Of a DNA stretch of 64,000 nt, positions 19,431-25,670 are shown one piece after another (within the stretch, counting starts at the first letter, position 1; every line of letters starts with the position of its first letter). This DNA comes from Blastococcus sp. CT_GayMR16 (GTDB lineage: Bacteria > Actinomycetota > Actinomycetes > Mycobacteriales > Geodermatophilaceae). The notes beneath the pieces are model-generated. The model worked only from the letters and a program-made list of their open reading frames with translations, was not told the origin of the DNA and ran no database searches. The position numbers and the translations under genes are program-made. Location of the stretch: the NCBI RefSeq assembly GCF_004570875.1, contig NZ_SPQK01000013.1, forward strand, positions 1 to 64,000. Direction: 5' to 3'.

Positions 19431-21893
19431 TCAGGCGGCGATCGCGGCCACTGGTGAGGTGCGGGCCGCCCGCCGGGCCGGGAGCACCGAGGCCAGCAGA
19501 CCGGCGAGCGTCGCGACCACGACGATCGCCGCCACCTGCAGCCACGGGACGGCGAGCACGATCTCGCCGATCTCGCCGAGCACCGACGCTGCCCCGATCA
19601 GCCCGTACGCCCCGCCGAGCAGCACCCCGAGGACTGCGGCGACCCCCGCCACGAGCACCGCCTCCCAGGCCAGCAGCCTGCGCAGCTGCCCGCGGGTGAG
19701 GCCCAGGGCTCGGAGCAGACCGTTCTCCTGCCGCCGCTCGACCACCGAGAGCGCCAGGGTGTTGCCCACGCCGATCAGCGCGATGACCACGGCGATGCCG
19801 AGCAGGCCGGTGACCACCAGCAGGAGCAGGTCGAGGACCTCGTTGATCTGATCCCGCAGGGTGACCACGCCCGTGACCTGGGCCGACGGGGCGACGTCCG
19901 CGGTGACGTCGGTGATCCGGTCGACCGTGTCCACCTGGCCGTCCGGGTCGGCGTCGGCCAGCCGCAGCCAGACCTCGCCGATGCCGGCGTCGGGCCGCAG
20001 CGTCGTCAGGTCCGCGGCGGTCAGCACCAGCGGCTGGTCCTGGTCCACCACCGCGACGCTGAGGTCCAGCCGCCGGTCGTCCTGGGCCAGGGTCACCCGG
20101 TCCCCGGTGCGCACCGACCACGAGTCCGCCAGCCACTCCGGCAGCAGCGCCTGACCGGGCTCGGGCAGGACCGTCTTCCCCGCCGACCGCAGGGTGGGAC
20201 CGGCCTCGGCCGGGTCGATGCCGAACGCGTACATCGGCTGACCGTCCGGCCCGGTGACCTCACCCGCGAGGACGACGTTGCCGCGCTCCACTCCGTCGAC
20301 GTCGGCGAGCCTGCCGGGCAGCGACGCGGGGAGTTCCTGGCCCTGGACCACGACGTCGGTCGGGAACTCGGCGGCCAGGTTCGCCGTCGCCGTGGCCCGC
20401 GTGGAGGCCGAGCCGACCACCATCGCCGTCGTCAGCGTGACGCCGATCAGCAGGGCCGTGGCCGTCGCCGCCGTCCGCCGGGGGTTGCGGGTGGCGTTGC
20501 CCGCGGCGAGCCGGGCCGGCACGCCGCCGAACCGCCCGGCCAGCCGGCCAGCGGCCGCGACGACCGGTGGCACCGCCCGCTGGGCCAGCAGGACGACGCC
20601 GAGGAAGCTCAGCACCCCGCCGGGCAGGGCGACCAGCACATCGGCCATCGCGACGCCCATGGCCAGCAGGCCGACGCCCGGCAGCAGCAGGAGCAGTCCG
20701 AACACCAGCCGCAGGACGCCGTTCCGGGAGCGCAGCGGTGCCGGGTCGACGGGGCGCATCGCCGCGAGCGGGGCGACCCGGGTGGCGCCGCGCGCGGGGG
20801 CGAGGGCGGCCAGGAAGGTCACCGCCGTCCCGAGGACGAGCCCGACGAGGACGGCGTAGAGCGGCACCGAGACCCCCGACAGCGGCACCGGGGTCTCTCC
20901 GGAGCCGACCAGCGCCGAGACCCCGGCCGCGAGGCCGATCCCGGCCAGCACACCGATCGCCGAGGCGACGAGACCGGTGACGAGGGCCTCGCCGAGGACG
21001 CTGCGGCGCACCTGGCGCGCCGTGGCACCGACGCAGCGCAGGAGGGCGAGCTCCCGGGTCCGCTGGGCGAGCACCACGGCGAACGTGTTGGCGATGACCA
21101 GACCGGCGACGAGCACGGCGACGGTGGCGAACACCAGCAGGACGGCCGCCAGCGCCGTCGAGTTGCCCATCAGCCGGGCTGCCGCGTGCTCCGCGGCCTC
21201 GGTGCCGGTGCGCACGGTGACGTCGTGGCCGGCCAGCGCCGTCGCGACGTCCAGCCGCACCTTCTCCGGTGCGACCCCCTCTGCCCCGGCGATGCGCAGC
21301 TCGGTCGGGTCGGTCGCTCCCCACGACCGGGCCTGGTCCGCCGTGACGAACGCGCGGCCGTACAGCCCCGCCTCGGGGTCGCCGCGCAGGTCGACGATGC
21401 CGGTGACGGTCGCCTCGGAGGTGCTCTCGCCGCCGTCGGCGTCGAAGGTCGTGACGGTGAGGACGTCGCCCACGTCGGCGCGGGCGCGTTCGCTGACCGC
21501 GACCTCCCCCGGCCGGTCGGGGAGGGCGCCCGCGGCCAGTTGCTGCCAGCGGAGAGCGGGATCGTCGGCGACCGCCTCGACCTGCAGGAACTGTGAGCCG
21601 CTCCGGCCGGGCACGTTCGCCTGGACCGAGGTCTGCCAGGACGGCGCGACCGCGCCGACGGAGTCGAGCGCGCTCAGCGTGCCGACGTCACCGGCGAGCG
21701 AGTCGCCGTCCGAGCTCACGACGGCGGCGGCGTCGACGTACCGGGCACCGAGGGCGTCCAGGACGGTGGTGCGGGAGGTCTGGTTGAGCACGAGCGTGCC
21801 CACCACGAAGCCGACGGCGATGACGACGGCCAGGGTGGAGGCGATCAGCCGCGCGGCGTTCGCGCGGATCTGAGCGAACAAGACGGTGCGCAC
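19431..21893 (-). CDS. MacB/FtsX-type ABC transporter permease
   Basis: An 820-residue permease with a tandem architecture. An N-terminal TM (about 15-36) is followed by a periplasmic-type MacB_PCD domain (40-240), FtsX domain 1 with four TM segments (about 255-440), a second extracellular domain (490-680) and FtsX domain 2 (700-810). Such proteins act mechanically on the outer face to export lipids, lipoproteins or peptides. The start is GTG 21893. It follows its ATPase gene by 4 bp. No substrate can be assigned. Confidence 0.9.
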   Translation of the reverse strand: MRTVLFAQIRANAARLIASTLAVVIAVGFVVGTLVLNQTSRTTVLDALGARYVDAAAVVSSDGDSLAGDVGTLSALDSVGAVAPSWQTSVQANVPGRSGSQFLQVEAVADDPALRWQQLAAGALPDRPGEVAVSERARADVGDVLTVTTFDADGGESTSEATVTGIVDLRGDPEAGLYGRAFVTADQARSWGATDPTELRIAGAEGVAPEKVRLDVATALAGHDVTVRTGTEAAEHAAARLMGNSTALAAVLLVFATVAVLVAGLVIANTFAVVLAQRTRELALLRCVGATARQVRRSVLGEALVTGLVASAIGVLAGIGLAAGVSALVGSGETPVPLSGVSVPLYAVLVGLVLGTAVTFLAALAPARGATRVAPLAAMRPVDPAPLRSRNGVLRLVFGLLLLLPGVGLLAMGVAMADVLVALPGGVLSFLGVVLLAQRAVPPVVAAAGRLAGRFGGVPARLAAGNATRNPRRTAATATALLIGVTLTTAMVVGSASTRATATANLAAEFPTDVVVQGQELPASLPGRLADVDGVERGNVVLAGEVTGPDGQPMYAFGIDPAEAGPTLRSAGKTVLPEPGQALLPEWLADSWSVRTGDRVTLAQDDRRLDLSVAVVDQDQPLVLTAADLTTLRPDAGIGEVWLRLADADPDGQVDTVDRITDVTADVAPSAQVTGVVTLRDQINEVLDLLLLVVTGLLGIAVVIALIGVGNTLALSVVERRQENGLLRALGLTRGQLRRLLAWEAVLVAGVAAVLGVLLGGAYGLIGAASVLGEIGEIVLAVPWLQVAAIVVVATLAGLLASVLPARRAARTSPVAAIAA

Positions 21894-21897
21894 GGGA

Positions 21898-22695
21898 TCA
21901 GGCCCCCAGCCCGGCGAGGGCGTCCAACACGGACTCGGCGGTCGGGGCGACCAGCTCGCCGGCCAGGCGGCCGTCGGCGAGCAGGACCACGCGGTCGGCG
22001 TAGGCCGCGGCGGTCGGGTCGTGGGTGACCATGACGACGGTCTGGCCGGTCTCCTTGACGCTGGAGCGCAGCAGGCCGAGCACCTCGGCGCCGGAGCGGG
22101 AGTCGAGGTTGCCGGTGGGCTCGTCGGCGAAGACGACGTCCGGCCGGGGCAGCAGCGCCCGGGCGATCGCGACGCGTTGCTGCTGGCCGCCGGAGAGCTC
22201 GTGCGGGCGGTGCCCGAGGCGTTCGCGCAGGCCGAGGCGGGCGATGACGGCGTCCATCCACACCCGGTCGGGACGCTGCCCGCCCAATTGCATGGGCAGG
22301 ACGATGTTCTCGAGGGCGTCGAGCACCGGCAGCAGGTTGAACGACTGGAAGACGAAGCCGATCCGCTGGCGGCGCAGCGTGGTCAGCTGGTCGTCGCGGA
22401 GGCTGGTGAGCTCGGTGCCGCCGAGCCACACCTGGCCCTCGGTGGCGGTGTCGAGCCCCGCCAGGCAGTGCATCAGGGTGGACTTCCCGGAGCCCGACGG
22501 GCCCATGATGGCGGTGAACTCCCCGCGGGCGAAGGTGACGTCGACCCCCGCTCCGCCGCCACCCGCCCTCCCGCCGAGTGCCTCGACGGCGGTCTCCCCA
22601 CGTCCGTAGGTCTTGCGCAGACCAGCGGCGCGCACGGCGGCGGTGGAGAGCGACGCCGGTGGCTCGCCGGGCACGGTCATGACGGGGACGGACAC
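21898..22695 (-). CDS. MacB/LolD-type ABC transporter ATP-binding protein
   Basis: A 265-residue ATPase. Walker A is GPSGSGKST, the Q-loop is FQSFNLLP, the signature is LSGGQQQRVAIARALL, Walker B is VVFADEPTGNLD and the H-loop is VTHDP. The DEPTGNLD variant is typical of MacB/LolD/FtsE ATPases. I chose GTG 22695, because GGAGG ends 5 bases upstream; ATG 22680 would be 20 bases away. A glycine-rich insertion (GGRAGGGGAG) between the first strands is unusual but not damaging. Confidence 0.9.
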   Translation of the reverse strand: MSVPVMTVPGEPPASLSTAAVRAAGLRKTYGRGETAVEALGGRAGGGGAGVDVTFARGEFTAIMGPSGSGKSTLMHCLAGLDTATEGQVWLGGTELTSLRDDQLTTLRRQRIGFVFQSFNLLPVLDALENIVLPMQLGGQRPDRVWMDAVIARLGLRERLGHRPHELSGGQQQRVAIARALLPRPDVVFADEPTGNLDSRSGAEVLGLLRSSVKETGQTVVMVTHDPTAAAYADRVVLLADGRLAGELVAPTAESVLDALAGLGA

Positions 22696-22825
22696 GGGGA
22701 CCTCCGGAAGCAGGTGATCGGAACGGTGATCACGCTGCCGGTCAGGCAGGTCGTCCCGCGTCGGAGCGAGGACCGGTCTTTCGGAACGTCGCGGTACCAC
22801 TCCGGGTGGACGCCGTGTCATCCTC

Positions 22826-22863
22826 CGGTCGGTCGGTCGGTCGGTCGGTCGGTCGGTCGGTCG
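22826..22863. repeat. (GGTC)n tetranucleotide tandem repeat
   Basis: Thirty-eight bases of uninterrupted GGTC repeat (9.5 units) lie in the 187-bp gap between the divergent ABC ATPase gene and a small membrane-protein gene, ending 20 bp before the latter's ATG. This is a mutable microsatellite in a position where unit gain or loss would shift promoter or leader spacing. Confidence 0.9.
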
Positions 22864-22882
22864 ACGAGGTGAGGGGACGGAC

Positions 22883-23233
22883 ATGGTGACCGGAGCGCCC
22901 GCGCGCCCGCCGACGCAGGGCTGGCAGCACCGGAATCTGGCCGCGATCCTCTCCATCTGGCTGATCGCCGCCTTCCTGGCGATCGGGGCTGCCCTGCAGT
23001 CGGACTGGGCGCCGTTCGGCGAGCTGCCGACGGCCGCGCAGGTCCGCCAGGCGCGGACGGACGCGTGGAGTGCCGGAGTGGTGTCGGTGCTGCCGCCGGC
23101 CGTGGGCCTCCTGCTCGCCCGGCGGTGGCGGTCGGACGGGTGGACGGCCGCGTTCCTCGTGGGTCTCATGTTCGCCGTCCTGGTGTCCGGCGCCCTGCTG
23201 TGGCTGACCGACTCCCCGGTCCGCCCGGGATGA
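22883..23233 (+). CDS. small membrane protein of unknown function
   Basis: A 116-residue protein with three predicted TM segments (about 20-40, 65-80 and 86-106) and no motif I recognise. ATG 22883 follows GAGGTGAGGGG. Its stop overlaps the start of the next membrane-protein gene (ATGA), so the pair is translated together. The leader contains the (GGTC)n repeat. Confidence 0.7.
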   Translation: MVTGAPARPPTQGWQHRNLAAILSIWLIAAFLAIGAALQSDWAPFGELPTAAQVRQARTDAWSAGVVSVLPPAVGLLLARRWRSDGWTAAFLVGLMFAVLVSGALLWLTDSPVRPG

Positions 23234-23706
23234 GCGGCGACGGGCTGCCCGGGGACCTGTGGGAAGAGACCGGCGCCGAGGGGGAACCGATCCGGGACCG
23301 GCCGCAGGTCTGGCTGAGCGCCGCGCTGACGGTCGTGGCGGTGGCCTTCCTGGCGGTCGCCGTCCACGGCGTGTTCACGGTGGTGGGCGACCTGCTCGGC
23401 TGGGCCGGCGACAACGCCCTGCACATCGCTGGAGAGTCGCCGCCCTCCGGCCGGGAGGTACTGCGGGAGGACGTGCTCGCACTCACCCTCCGCGCGTCCT
23501 GCGTGGCGGGCATCGGCGTGGTGCTGGGTCTCTGGCGGGGCCGCGGGCTGGCGGTGGCGGTCTTCGGAGGGGCGGTCGTGGTCTCCCTCGTCGTCGGGCT
23601 GACCACCTACGCGATCGCCGCGAAGAACCGGCCGGACCGGCCATCCTGGGAGGACGACCCGCGCGGCTGCGTGGAGCTGAGCGGAGAGCCCAGCGACTGT
23701 CCCTGA
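23230..23706 (+). CDS. membrane protein of unknown function
   Basis: A 158-residue protein with three predicted TM segments (about 28-50, 86-103 and 106-128), an acidic N-terminus and a C-terminal tail holding two cysteines (residues 145 and 157). It starts within the stop of the preceding gene. It ends 2 bp before the converging response-regulator gene. Family not recognised. Confidence 0.7.
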   Translation: MSGDGLPGDLWEETGAEGEPIRDRPQVWLSAALTVVAVAFLAVAVHGVFTVVGDLLGWAGDNALHIAGESPPSGREVLREDVLALTLRASCVAGIGVVLGLWRGRGLAVAVFGGAVVVSLVVGLTTYAIAAKNRPDRPSWEDDPRGCVELSGEPSDCP

Positions 23707-23708
23707 GT

Positions 23709-24401
23709 TCAGGCGTCGCGGAGCAGGTCGGCGGGCTGGACGAGGCCGGTGCGGTAGGCGAGGACGACGGCCTGCACCCGGTCGCGCGAGCCGGTCTTGG
23801 CCAGCACCCGGCCGACGTGGGTCTTCACGGTGGCCTCGCTGACCACGAACCGGCCGGCGATCTCGGTGTTGCTCGCGCCGAGTGCCATCTGCACCAGCAC
23901 CTCCCGCTCGCGCGGGGTGAGGTCGGCGAGCTGGCGGTCGGTCACGGCCGACGACGGCGCTGCGCCGCGGAGCATCGGCGCGACGTGCTGCAGCAGACGC
24001 CGGGTCGAGCTGGCCGCGATGACGGAGTCACCGGCGTGGACGGTCCGCACGGCCGCGAGCATGTCCTCCGGAGCGGCGTCCTTGAGCAGGAACCCGCTGG
24101 CCCCGGCGCCGATCGCGGCGACGACGTACTCGTCCAGGTCGAACGTCGTCAGGACGACGACCCGCGGCGCGTCCGGGAGTGCGGTGACCTGCCGGGTCGC
24201 CTCGATCCCGTCGGTACCGGGCATCCGCACGTCCATGAGGACGACGTCGGCCGGCGTGCGGCGCAGCAGGTCGACCGCGCTCGCGCCGTCGCCGGCCTCC
24301 CCGACGACGGTCAGGTCGGGCTGGGAGTCGATCACCATGCGGAACCCGGCCCGCACCATCTGCTGGTCGTCGACCAGGACCACGCGGATCGGGTCGCTCA
24401 T
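23709..24401 (-). CDS. NarL/LuxR-family response regulator
   Basis: A 230-residue regulator. The receiver domain (about 3-120) has the acidic pocket VDDQ, phospho-acceptor Asp in VVLMDVRMPGTDG (about residue 55) and conserved Lys in FLLKDA. The LuxR helix-turn-helix is about 165-222 (LTPREREVLVQMALGASNTEIA, VSEATVKTHVGRVLAKT). It overlaps the histidine kinase gene by 4 bp, so the two form a two-component system. Its target is unknown; the FtsX-type exporter 1-4 kb away is a plausible one (inference). Confidence 0.93.
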   Translation of the reverse strand: MSDPIRVVLVDDQQMVRAGFRMVIDSQPDLTVVGEAGDGASAVDLLRRTPADVVLMDVRMPGTDGIEATRQVTALPDAPRVVVLTTFDLDEYVVAAIGAGASGFLLKDAAPEDMLAAVRTVHAGDSVIAASSTRRLLQHVAPMLRGAAPSSAVTDRQLADLTPREREVLVQMALGASNTEIAGRFVVSEATVKTHVGRVLAKTGSRDRVQAVVLAYRTGLVQPADLLRDA

Positions 24402-25585
24402 CGCCGGACTCCGTAGGGGAGCGCGGCATGCACGCCGAAGCCGCCGCCGGTCCGGGGGCCGGCCTCGAGCCGACCGCCGTGCAACATCGCGCGCTCGACC
24501 ATCCCGCGCACGCCCTGACCCTGGCCGTCGGCGTCGACCATGGCTGCCGAGGCGCCGCGGCCGTCGTCGAGCACGGACAGCTCGAGGGCGTCGGGCCGCC
24601 ACTGCAGGCGCACCCACGCGCGGCTGGCCGGCCCCGCGTGCTTGAGCACGTTGGTGAGCGATTCCTGCACGATCCGGTAGGCGGCCAGCTGCGGGCCGGC
24701 CGGCAGCGGGCGGGGATCGCCCTCGACGATCAGGTCGACGTCCAGACCGCTGCTCCGCACGTCCTCGACCAGGACCGGGATCGCCGCGACGTCGGGCTGC
24801 GGCGCGTACTCCTCGGCGCTGCCCTCCCGCAGCACCCCGAGCAGCGAGCGCATGTCGGCCAGCGCCTGCCGGCCGGTCGCCGCGATGGCCTCCAGTGCTC
24901 CGGTCGCCGCCTCGGGGTCGGCCTTGCCGGCGTACCGGCCGCCGTCGGCCTGCGCGATGACGACGGAGAGGGAGTGCGCGACGACGTCGTGGAGCTCGCG
25001 GGCGATCCGGGCCCGCTCGGCGGTCGCCGCGAGCCGCATCTCCTGGTCGCGCTCCAGCTCCAGCAGCTCGGCGCGCTCCTCGAGCGCGGCCACCCGCAGC
25101 AGCCGGGCGCGGCGCAGGTCGCCCAGCGCCCAGGACGCGACGACCGCGACGCCGATCGCCAGGGCGGTCGGGACGAGGGCGTCGCTGACGTTCCCGGAGA
25201 AGTAGCGCAGCGAGGCCAGGAGCGCCCCGAGCAGGCCGACGGCCAGGCCGCCGCGGGACGCCCACCGCGGCGCGTAGGCCGCCAGGGCGTAGATCATGAA
25301 CAAGGCCGCGACGTTGGCCGCCAGGAACGTGTTCAGGGCGCCCAGCTCGAACAGTCCCACGGCGATGACGACGGCCGCCGCGTGCACCGGCGCGCGGCGG
25401 CGCCAGGCCAGGGGGACCGTCAGGAGCAGACCGAGCAGGAACGCGCCGGTCGGGTTCTCCCAGTAGCCGGGGGCCGGCAACAGCACCGTGCAGAACGCGA
25501 CGGCGGCGGCCAGCCAGCAGTCGACGGCGAACGGGTGCGCACGGGCCCAGCGCGCGACGCGCTCGACAGCAGGGGACCGCTCCAT
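24398..25585 (-). CDS. NarL-type sensor histidine kinase
   Basis: A 395-residue membrane kinase. Residues 1-160 hold about five to six TM segments without an obvious extracellular sensor, suggesting intramembrane sensing. The HisKA_3 dimerisation helix contains the phospho-acceptor His in ARIARELHDVVAHSLSVV, and the ATPase domain has QESLTNVLKHAG and VLDDGRGA. I chose ATG 25585, because an ACCCTA/TAGGGT box lies 7 nt upstream as in leaderless genes. ATG 25639 would add 18 residues. Confidence 0.9.
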   Translation of the reverse strand: MERSPAVERVARWARAHPFAVDCWLAAAVAFCTVLLPAPGYWENPTGAFLLGLLLTVPLAWRRRAPVHAAAVVIAVGLFELGALNTFLAANVAALFMIYALAAYAPRWASRGGLAVGLLGALLASLRYFSGNVSDALVPTALAIGVAVVASWALGDLRRARLLRVAALEERAELLELERDQEMRLAATAERARIARELHDVVAHSLSVVIAQADGGRYAGKADPEAATGALEAIAATGRQALADMRSLLGVLREGSAEEYAPQPDVAAIPVLVEDVRSSGLDVDLIVEGDPRPLPAGPQLAAYRIVQESLTNVLKHAGPASRAWVRLQWRPDALELSVLDDGRGASAAMVDADGQGQGVRGMVERAMLHGGRLEAGPRTGGGFGVHAALPYGVRR

Positions 25586-25592
25586 TGGGTCG

Positions 25593-25598
25593 ACCCTA
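25593..25598 (-). promoter_or_regulatory. leaderless-type -10 box of the histidine kinase gene
   Basis: TAGGGT on the minus strand lies 7 nt before ATG 25585. The gene has no visible ribosome-binding site, as expected for a leaderless transcript. Confidence 0.45.
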
Positions 25599-25670
25599 GG
25601 CAGCGCGGCCGGAAATCTCGTCGTCCCCAGGAGGGACATGCGCGTCAGACCGCGGTGGGACGCTGGACCC

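Follow-up and report, generated by a model that had tools for sequence, protein, structure and literature searches.

The window, by which we mean the whole 64,000-nucleotide stretch of DNA analysed here, carries a perfect GGTC microsatellite in the intergenic region between an ABC transporter operon and a divergently oriented pair of small membrane-protein genes, ORF1 and ORF2, beyond which lie the genes of a response regulator and a sensor histidine kinase (Table 1). The exact (GGTC)9 core of the tract spans 22827-22862, and flanking partial copies extend the period of four to both ends of the 38 nucleotides. The original prediction of a pure 38-base GGTC tract is thus borne out, and the position that it gave the tract ahead of ORF1 also holds; the spacer between the end of the tract and the ORF1 start codon, put there at 20 bp, is exactly 19 bases. 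Two long open frames run through the array (plus strand, 21886-22872; minus strand, 21898-23424), and we take them as by-products of high GC content, the minus-strand frame holding the real ATPase gene.

Table 1. Features of the GGTC tract and its surroundings (positions are those of the window)
Feature	Position	Strand	Remarks
FtsX-domain permease, 820 aa	19431..21893	-	probable partner of the ATPase
ABC transporter ATPase	21898..22695	-	divergent from ORF1; resembles YbbA, LolD, MacB, BceA
Conserved 5' leader/promoter region of the ABC operon	22696..22825	-	GCTCCGACGCGG, GTGATCACC, Shine-Dalgarno GGAGG
Conserved box TGTCATCC-TCC-GGTCGG	22816..22832	.	from the family leader comparison; GGTCGG end is the array seed
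Perfect (GGTC)9.5 microsatellite	22826..22863	+	38 nt, period 4, 100% matches
Probable Shine-Dalgarno GAGGGGA of ORF1	22871..22877	+	5 nt before ATG 22883
ORF1, 116 aa	22883..23233	+	three hydrophobic segments; homologue in Blastococcus litoris
ORF2, 158 aa	23230..23706	+	three hydrophobic segments; homologue in Blastococcus sp. DSM 46786
LuxR/NarL-type response regulator	23709..24377	-	convergent with ORF2, co-directional with the ABC operon
Sensor histidine kinase	24398..25639	-	probable partner of the regulator

The tract is a microsatellite in the simple-sequence-repeat sense, a perfect short-unit tract beyond what chance would give. In simulations (60 sequences of 64 kb for each Markov order), period-4 tracts never exceeded 17 nt at order 1, 20 nt at order 3 and 19 nt at order 5. 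With up to one mismatch, GGTCGGTCGGTCGG matches seven times in the window against an expectation of 0.59, all seven matches overlapping inside the GGTC tract, and none of 100 shuffles gives seven. A census of 464,000 bases of the 4.52-Mb genome (the window and 20 further stretches, each of 20 kb; 72.5% GC) returned four period-4 tracts of at least 15 nt, namely the 38-nt array and tracts of 17, 15 and 15 nt, in agreement with the earlier claim that long tetranucleotide repeats are rare. Across the 4.52-Mb assembly, the only other exact occurrence of GGTCGGTCGGTCGGTC is one short array immediately 3' of an open frame on contig C22.

ORF1 and ORF2 overlap in the sequence ATGA, with ATG 23230 being our own choice of ORF2 start; the open reading frame listing begins this frame at an earlier GTG (23065). 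Neither protein matches Pfam or NCBIfam at an E value of 0.001. At the equivalent position, Blastococcus litoris encodes an ORF1 homologue with 61-62% identity and Blastococcus sp. DSM 46786 an ORF2 homologue with 49-50% identity. Substitutions between these pairs number 28, 29 and 38 at the three codon positions of ORF1 and 48, 46 and 66 at those of ORF2, and this excess at third positions, a modest bias, makes both suit real genes. Matches resembling ORF1 or ORF2 (E value 0.001) were found in 13 of the 112 family genomes (ORF1 in seven, ORF2 in eight, both in two). Eight of the 13 have the match between the same regulator and ATPase genes, counting one genome (G106) in which it was not recovered by a later neighbourhood search and another (G028) in which it holds a TAG stop; the other five have no ATPase or regulator match within about 1.5 kb on each side. 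The presence of divergent small, uncharacterised membrane ORFs between the regulator and the ABC operon is patchy (8 of 112 family genomes): the window holds both, B. litoris yielded ORF1 alone and DSM 46786 ORF2 alone, and G028 has the stop-containing remnant. The idea that ORF1 and ORF2 are recent duplicates of one another received no support from BLASTP. A search for ORF1 across genome contigs gave 149 candidate stretches, none of which was confirmed, and a search of plasmid records gave 40 matches; among the 20 listed, query coverage was at most 32% and fell within the ATPase part.

On the other side of the array, the ATPase most likely starts at GTG 22695, judging from the GGAGG of its own that precedes this codon and from the aligned leaders, all 30 of which have GTG or ATG there; we preferred it on these grounds to ATG 22680. 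With this start, about 130 nt separate the ATPase gene from the array. Compared with NCBIfam, the ATPase reached the cut-off of none of the best 25 of 186 families. Over the 30 aligned family loci, GCTCCGACGCGG is near-invariant in the leader of the ABC operon and the GTGATCACC palindrome is present in most; farther upstream, a GGATGAC box occurs in 23 of the 30. The leader from this box to the ATPase gene is intact in the window and its spacing to the gene is independent of the repeat number, while conservation beyond the box, away from the ATPase, is poor. A hairpin drawn by eye around GCTCCGACGCGG had suggested a structured RNA in the exporter leader, an idea that we dropped for want of covariation and Rfam support: RNAalifold on the 30 leaders gave eight pairs with no compensatory change and a positive covariation term, and the three Rfam hits obtained with E values up to 5 lay far under their gathering scores. 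The single-sequence fold of the leader had a z score of -2.16, with 4 of 200 shuffles equally stable. Because covariation was not found, the leader elements are probably promoter or operator elements acting at the DNA level. A TCCGACC-like motif recurs at an offset of 24 nt in five of the 30 leaders (L011, L013, L015, L025 and L030), at 23 nt in four and at 22 nt in two, against at most two leaders per offset in 300 shuffles that ignore relatedness; these repeats are perhaps tandem regulator sites.

Comparison with relatives points to the origin of the array. The window, Blastococcus haudaquaticus, DSM 46786 and B. litoris have CGTGTCATCCTCCGGTCGG in common, after which B. litoris and DSM 46786 continue with AGTTCCGGATCGG and B. 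haudaquaticus with ACGG; the array follows in the window only. The homologous site reads CATCCTCCGGTCGGAGTTCCGG in B. litoris and DSM 46786, and the left flank with 1.5 copies of GGTC is found in all three relatives. Because these relatives carry the unexpanded seed at the site, the array appears to have grown from a 1.5-copy GGTCGG seed at the edge of the conserved box. It was not found at the homologous site in the DNA upstream of the ATPase in 33 other genomes, one per species, of which 29 come from a scan for upstream tandem runs and four more from a scan for divergent ORFs. The former returned no exact tandem run of more than 12 nt (unit 3-9, at least three copies) within 700 nt upstream of the ATPase in 30 other loci, which stem from the 29 genomes (G003 twice) and include one stretch of only 362 nt. 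In each of the seven other genomes that have a divergent small ORF here, period-4 tracts reach no more than 8 or 9 nt within the first 420 nt, and no GGTC array of at least 18 nt adjoins this ATPase in any other of the 112 family genomes searched.

The conserved box flanks the array on one side only. Read on the plus strand as TCAT[CG]C, it occurs in 23 of the 30 family leaders, 18 times at the same place and five times about 35 nt closer to the gene, seven leaders being without it, and a GGTCGGA-like sequence often follows it. All eight genomes with a divergent ORF (four from the 30-leader set and four additional ones) have T as first base of the box, against two of 19 leaders that have the box and in which no such ORF was found, counts that ignore relatedness. 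Because this T tracks the divergent ORF, the edge of the array may be where transcription begins. We infer that TGTCAT could serve ORF1 as a -10-like element, with transcription then starting near 22827; a consensus scan found no sigma-70-like promoter.

Long GGTC arrays occur at other sites in related bacteria. Arrays of at least 18 nt are present in eight of 112 family genomes (reversed pattern, 5 of 112) and arrays of at least 26 nt in four of 394 class genomes, including that of the window (reversed pattern, 14 of 394). Among the seven other family arrays, five lie on a different contig from the ATPase match or far from it, and two are in genomes without a close ATPase match (G019 and G048); the 60-nt flanks of the eight arrays are unrelated by eye. 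Six of the eight lie outside flagged open frames and two (L063 and L068) inside one, L068 before a probable GTG, as judged by a simple and insensitive heuristic that misses ORF1 too. Because long arrays are uncommon per genome yet recur independently, we favour their continual birth by slippage. The longest family array, 64 nt of pure GGTC (L067, 1501-1564, in genome G083), belongs to another genus and lies outside flagged open frames. Two shorter GACC arrays, L065 1503-1525 and L068 1503-1521, precede other genes in other genera, with about 20 and 57 nt, respectively, between array and probable start codon.

The repair genes of the source genome bear on such slippage. According to the available portion of PMC5290159, MutS-MutL is missing from almost all Actinobacteria, and a MutS_V profile search of the source genome indeed gave no match (11 of 14 control genomes match), while a NucS_C match is present. 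The accessible text of PMC8228993 states that NucS leaves indels uncorrected; it also suggests, which speaks against easy slippage, that most short indels are removed by the PHP exonuclease of actinobacterial DnaE. With indels outside the reach of NucS and no match to MutS found, length drift of the tract is plausible, as is the slippage in steps of 4 bp envisaged from the start, and 4-nt units of the 38-nt tract may be gained or lost without mismatch repair acting.

What a change in copy number could do is constrained by the layout of the locus. Slippage cannot break the frame of ORF1, because both its ATG and its Shine-Dalgarno sequence lie downstream of the array; its reach would be confined to the promoter-proximal region or the 5' leader of ORF1-ORF2. 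Because the conserved exporter leader lies on the opposite side with its spacing kept, ORF1-ORF2 is a likelier target than the exporter. The idea of a shared divergent promoter therefore stands as regards the divergent intergenic placement and is weakened as regards sharing, the ABC leader lying on the ATPase side with a spacing that does not depend on the repeat. We folded the ORF1 leader with 3-15 copies from four assumed start sites (22780, 22813, 22819 and 22826) and found no consistent effect of repeat number over the four. The predicted mean probability that the Shine-Dalgarno sequence is unpaired was 0.16-0.18, 0.21-0.52, 0.44-0.58 and 0.45-0.65 for the four sites in this order, and its predicted exposure was nearly flat with repeat number at three of them. 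Predicted exposure of the AUG alternated between odd and even copy numbers at the assumed start 22813 only (0.18 with eight copies, 0.49 with nine, 0.31 with ten and 0.48 with eleven).

Taken together, we consider it probable that the tract is a young, lineage-specific and slippage-prone microsatellite with little or graded effect on expression rather than an ON/OFF switch shaped by evolution. Its starting point would have been the 1.5-copy GGTCGG seed in the conserved box before the ABC operon, which expanded in the lineage of the window, most likely by replication slippage; gains or losses of 4 nt at this site leave every reading frame intact, and MutS went undetected in the organism. Copy number may still be varying; the exporter leader would be left intact, and any effect, probably small and graded, would fall mainly on ORF1-ORF2. 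We class the locus as a microsatellite and not as a phase-variable locus, and prefer an incidental young microsatellite, with an evolved rheostat as the next best reading. Counting against an incidental origin, the tract is an outlier within its own genome and lies directly upstream of the Shine-Dalgarno sequence of two membrane-protein genes, the place expected of a regulatory repeat; the odd/even alternation of AUG exposure predicted for start 22813 and the promoter-repeat variation of M. tuberculosis point the same way. The position of the array, 19 nt before ATG 22883 and beside a TGTCAT-like box whose first base tracks the divergent ORF, is also an argument for a phase-variable rheostat, in which 4-nt steps would alter the mRNA leader of ORF1-ORF2 or the geometry of their promoter and the array would be kept for diversifying the expression of two membrane proteins. 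The lack of a MutS_V match and the precedents of nadA, sabA and the M. tuberculosis promoter repeats fit this account as well. Against it, the array is missing in the relatives scanned, the consensus scan was without a sigma-70-like promoter and folding was without a consistent effect, and we hold it to be possible, if rather unlikely. Retention of the repeat in relatives, a supporting and not strictly defining mark of contingency loci, was not seen in the 33 genomes scanned. We are doubtful that this is a new contingency locus of an environmental actinobacterium, in which a GGTC array from the box edge would, through unrepaired slippage, tune ORF1-ORF2 and leave the exporter unaffected.

The array could instead act on the ABC exporter: extra copies would either extend the DNA upstream of the exporter's promoter or supply additional GGTC half-sites to some regulator, for instance the response regulator encoded nearby. 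It does abut the conserved GGATGAC box of the leader and repeats the GGTCGG edge of that box, and some leaders repeat the TCCGACC-like motif at a distance of 22-24 nt; the intact box-to-ATPase leader, its repeat-independent spacing and the poor conservation beyond the box nevertheless make this improbable. Less likely still is a translational switch, in which repeat number would set the frame of an upstream GTG and so yield an N-terminally extended ORF1. Two upstream GTGs are in frame with ORF1 at 7 or 10 repeats (the nearer at 22815) and two others at 8 or 11, and none is in frame in the window form with 9 repeats. ORF1 has its own Shine-Dalgarno sequence and ATG downstream of the array, however, its B. 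litoris homologue can start at the matching ATG, and by eye the GTG at 22815 has no clear Shine-Dalgarno sequence, so that we give this reading very little credence. We think it equally remote that the copy number is an assembly artefact, a collapse or expansion error: the genome is a draft in 47 contigs, yet the left flank of the tract matches relatives and ordinary reads are longer than 38 nt.

Among the papers found on Geodermatophilaceae tandem repeats and on Blastococcus phase variation, none was, judged by title, about such a repeat, and the available part of PMC7015867 does not mention GGTC. If copy number varies and matters, promoter-repeat phase variation of the kind documented in M. 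tuberculosis (PMC12817950, in the part available) would be extended to a Blastococcus-like organism, and the locus would have been seen near its birth, with relatives still holding the unexpanded seed. If not, the tract can still serve as a marker of how fast slippage occurs in a host in which MutS went undetected.

Among known repeats, the GGTC array resembles the neutral microsatellites of intergenic bacterial DNA in its non-triplet unit and in its sporadic occurrence across species. It differs from them in being long and perfect for its genome and in lying directly upstream of a Shine-Dalgarno sequence. In Neisseria meningitidis, the promoter repeat of nadA has the unit TAAA. As described in the accessible portions of the respective papers, nadA likewise has a short repeat near its promoter whose length could shift the spacing of regulator sites; there, however, the repeat lies between operators and its copy number affects expression (PMC2791445), whereas the GGTC array has a conserved box on one side only. 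The T-tract rheostat of sabA in Helicobacter pylori is similarly a promoter-proximal simple repeat with possibly graded output, and differs in being a mononucleotide tract with a demonstrated effect on RNA polymerase binding (PMC4081817). In M. tuberculosis, which according to the available text of PMC12892979 is without MutS-MutL, promoter tandem repeats (dop, lpdA, cysG/efpA) differ in copy number within populations, with a proposed effect on expression (PMC12817950, same portion). The dop unit is 57 bp and its variation is seen between isolates and within populations, whereas the unit in the window is 4 nt and comes from one genome; what the two share is an actinobacterial host, a tandem repeat directly upstream of genes and a position in which a change of copy number would cause no frameshift (PMC12817950).
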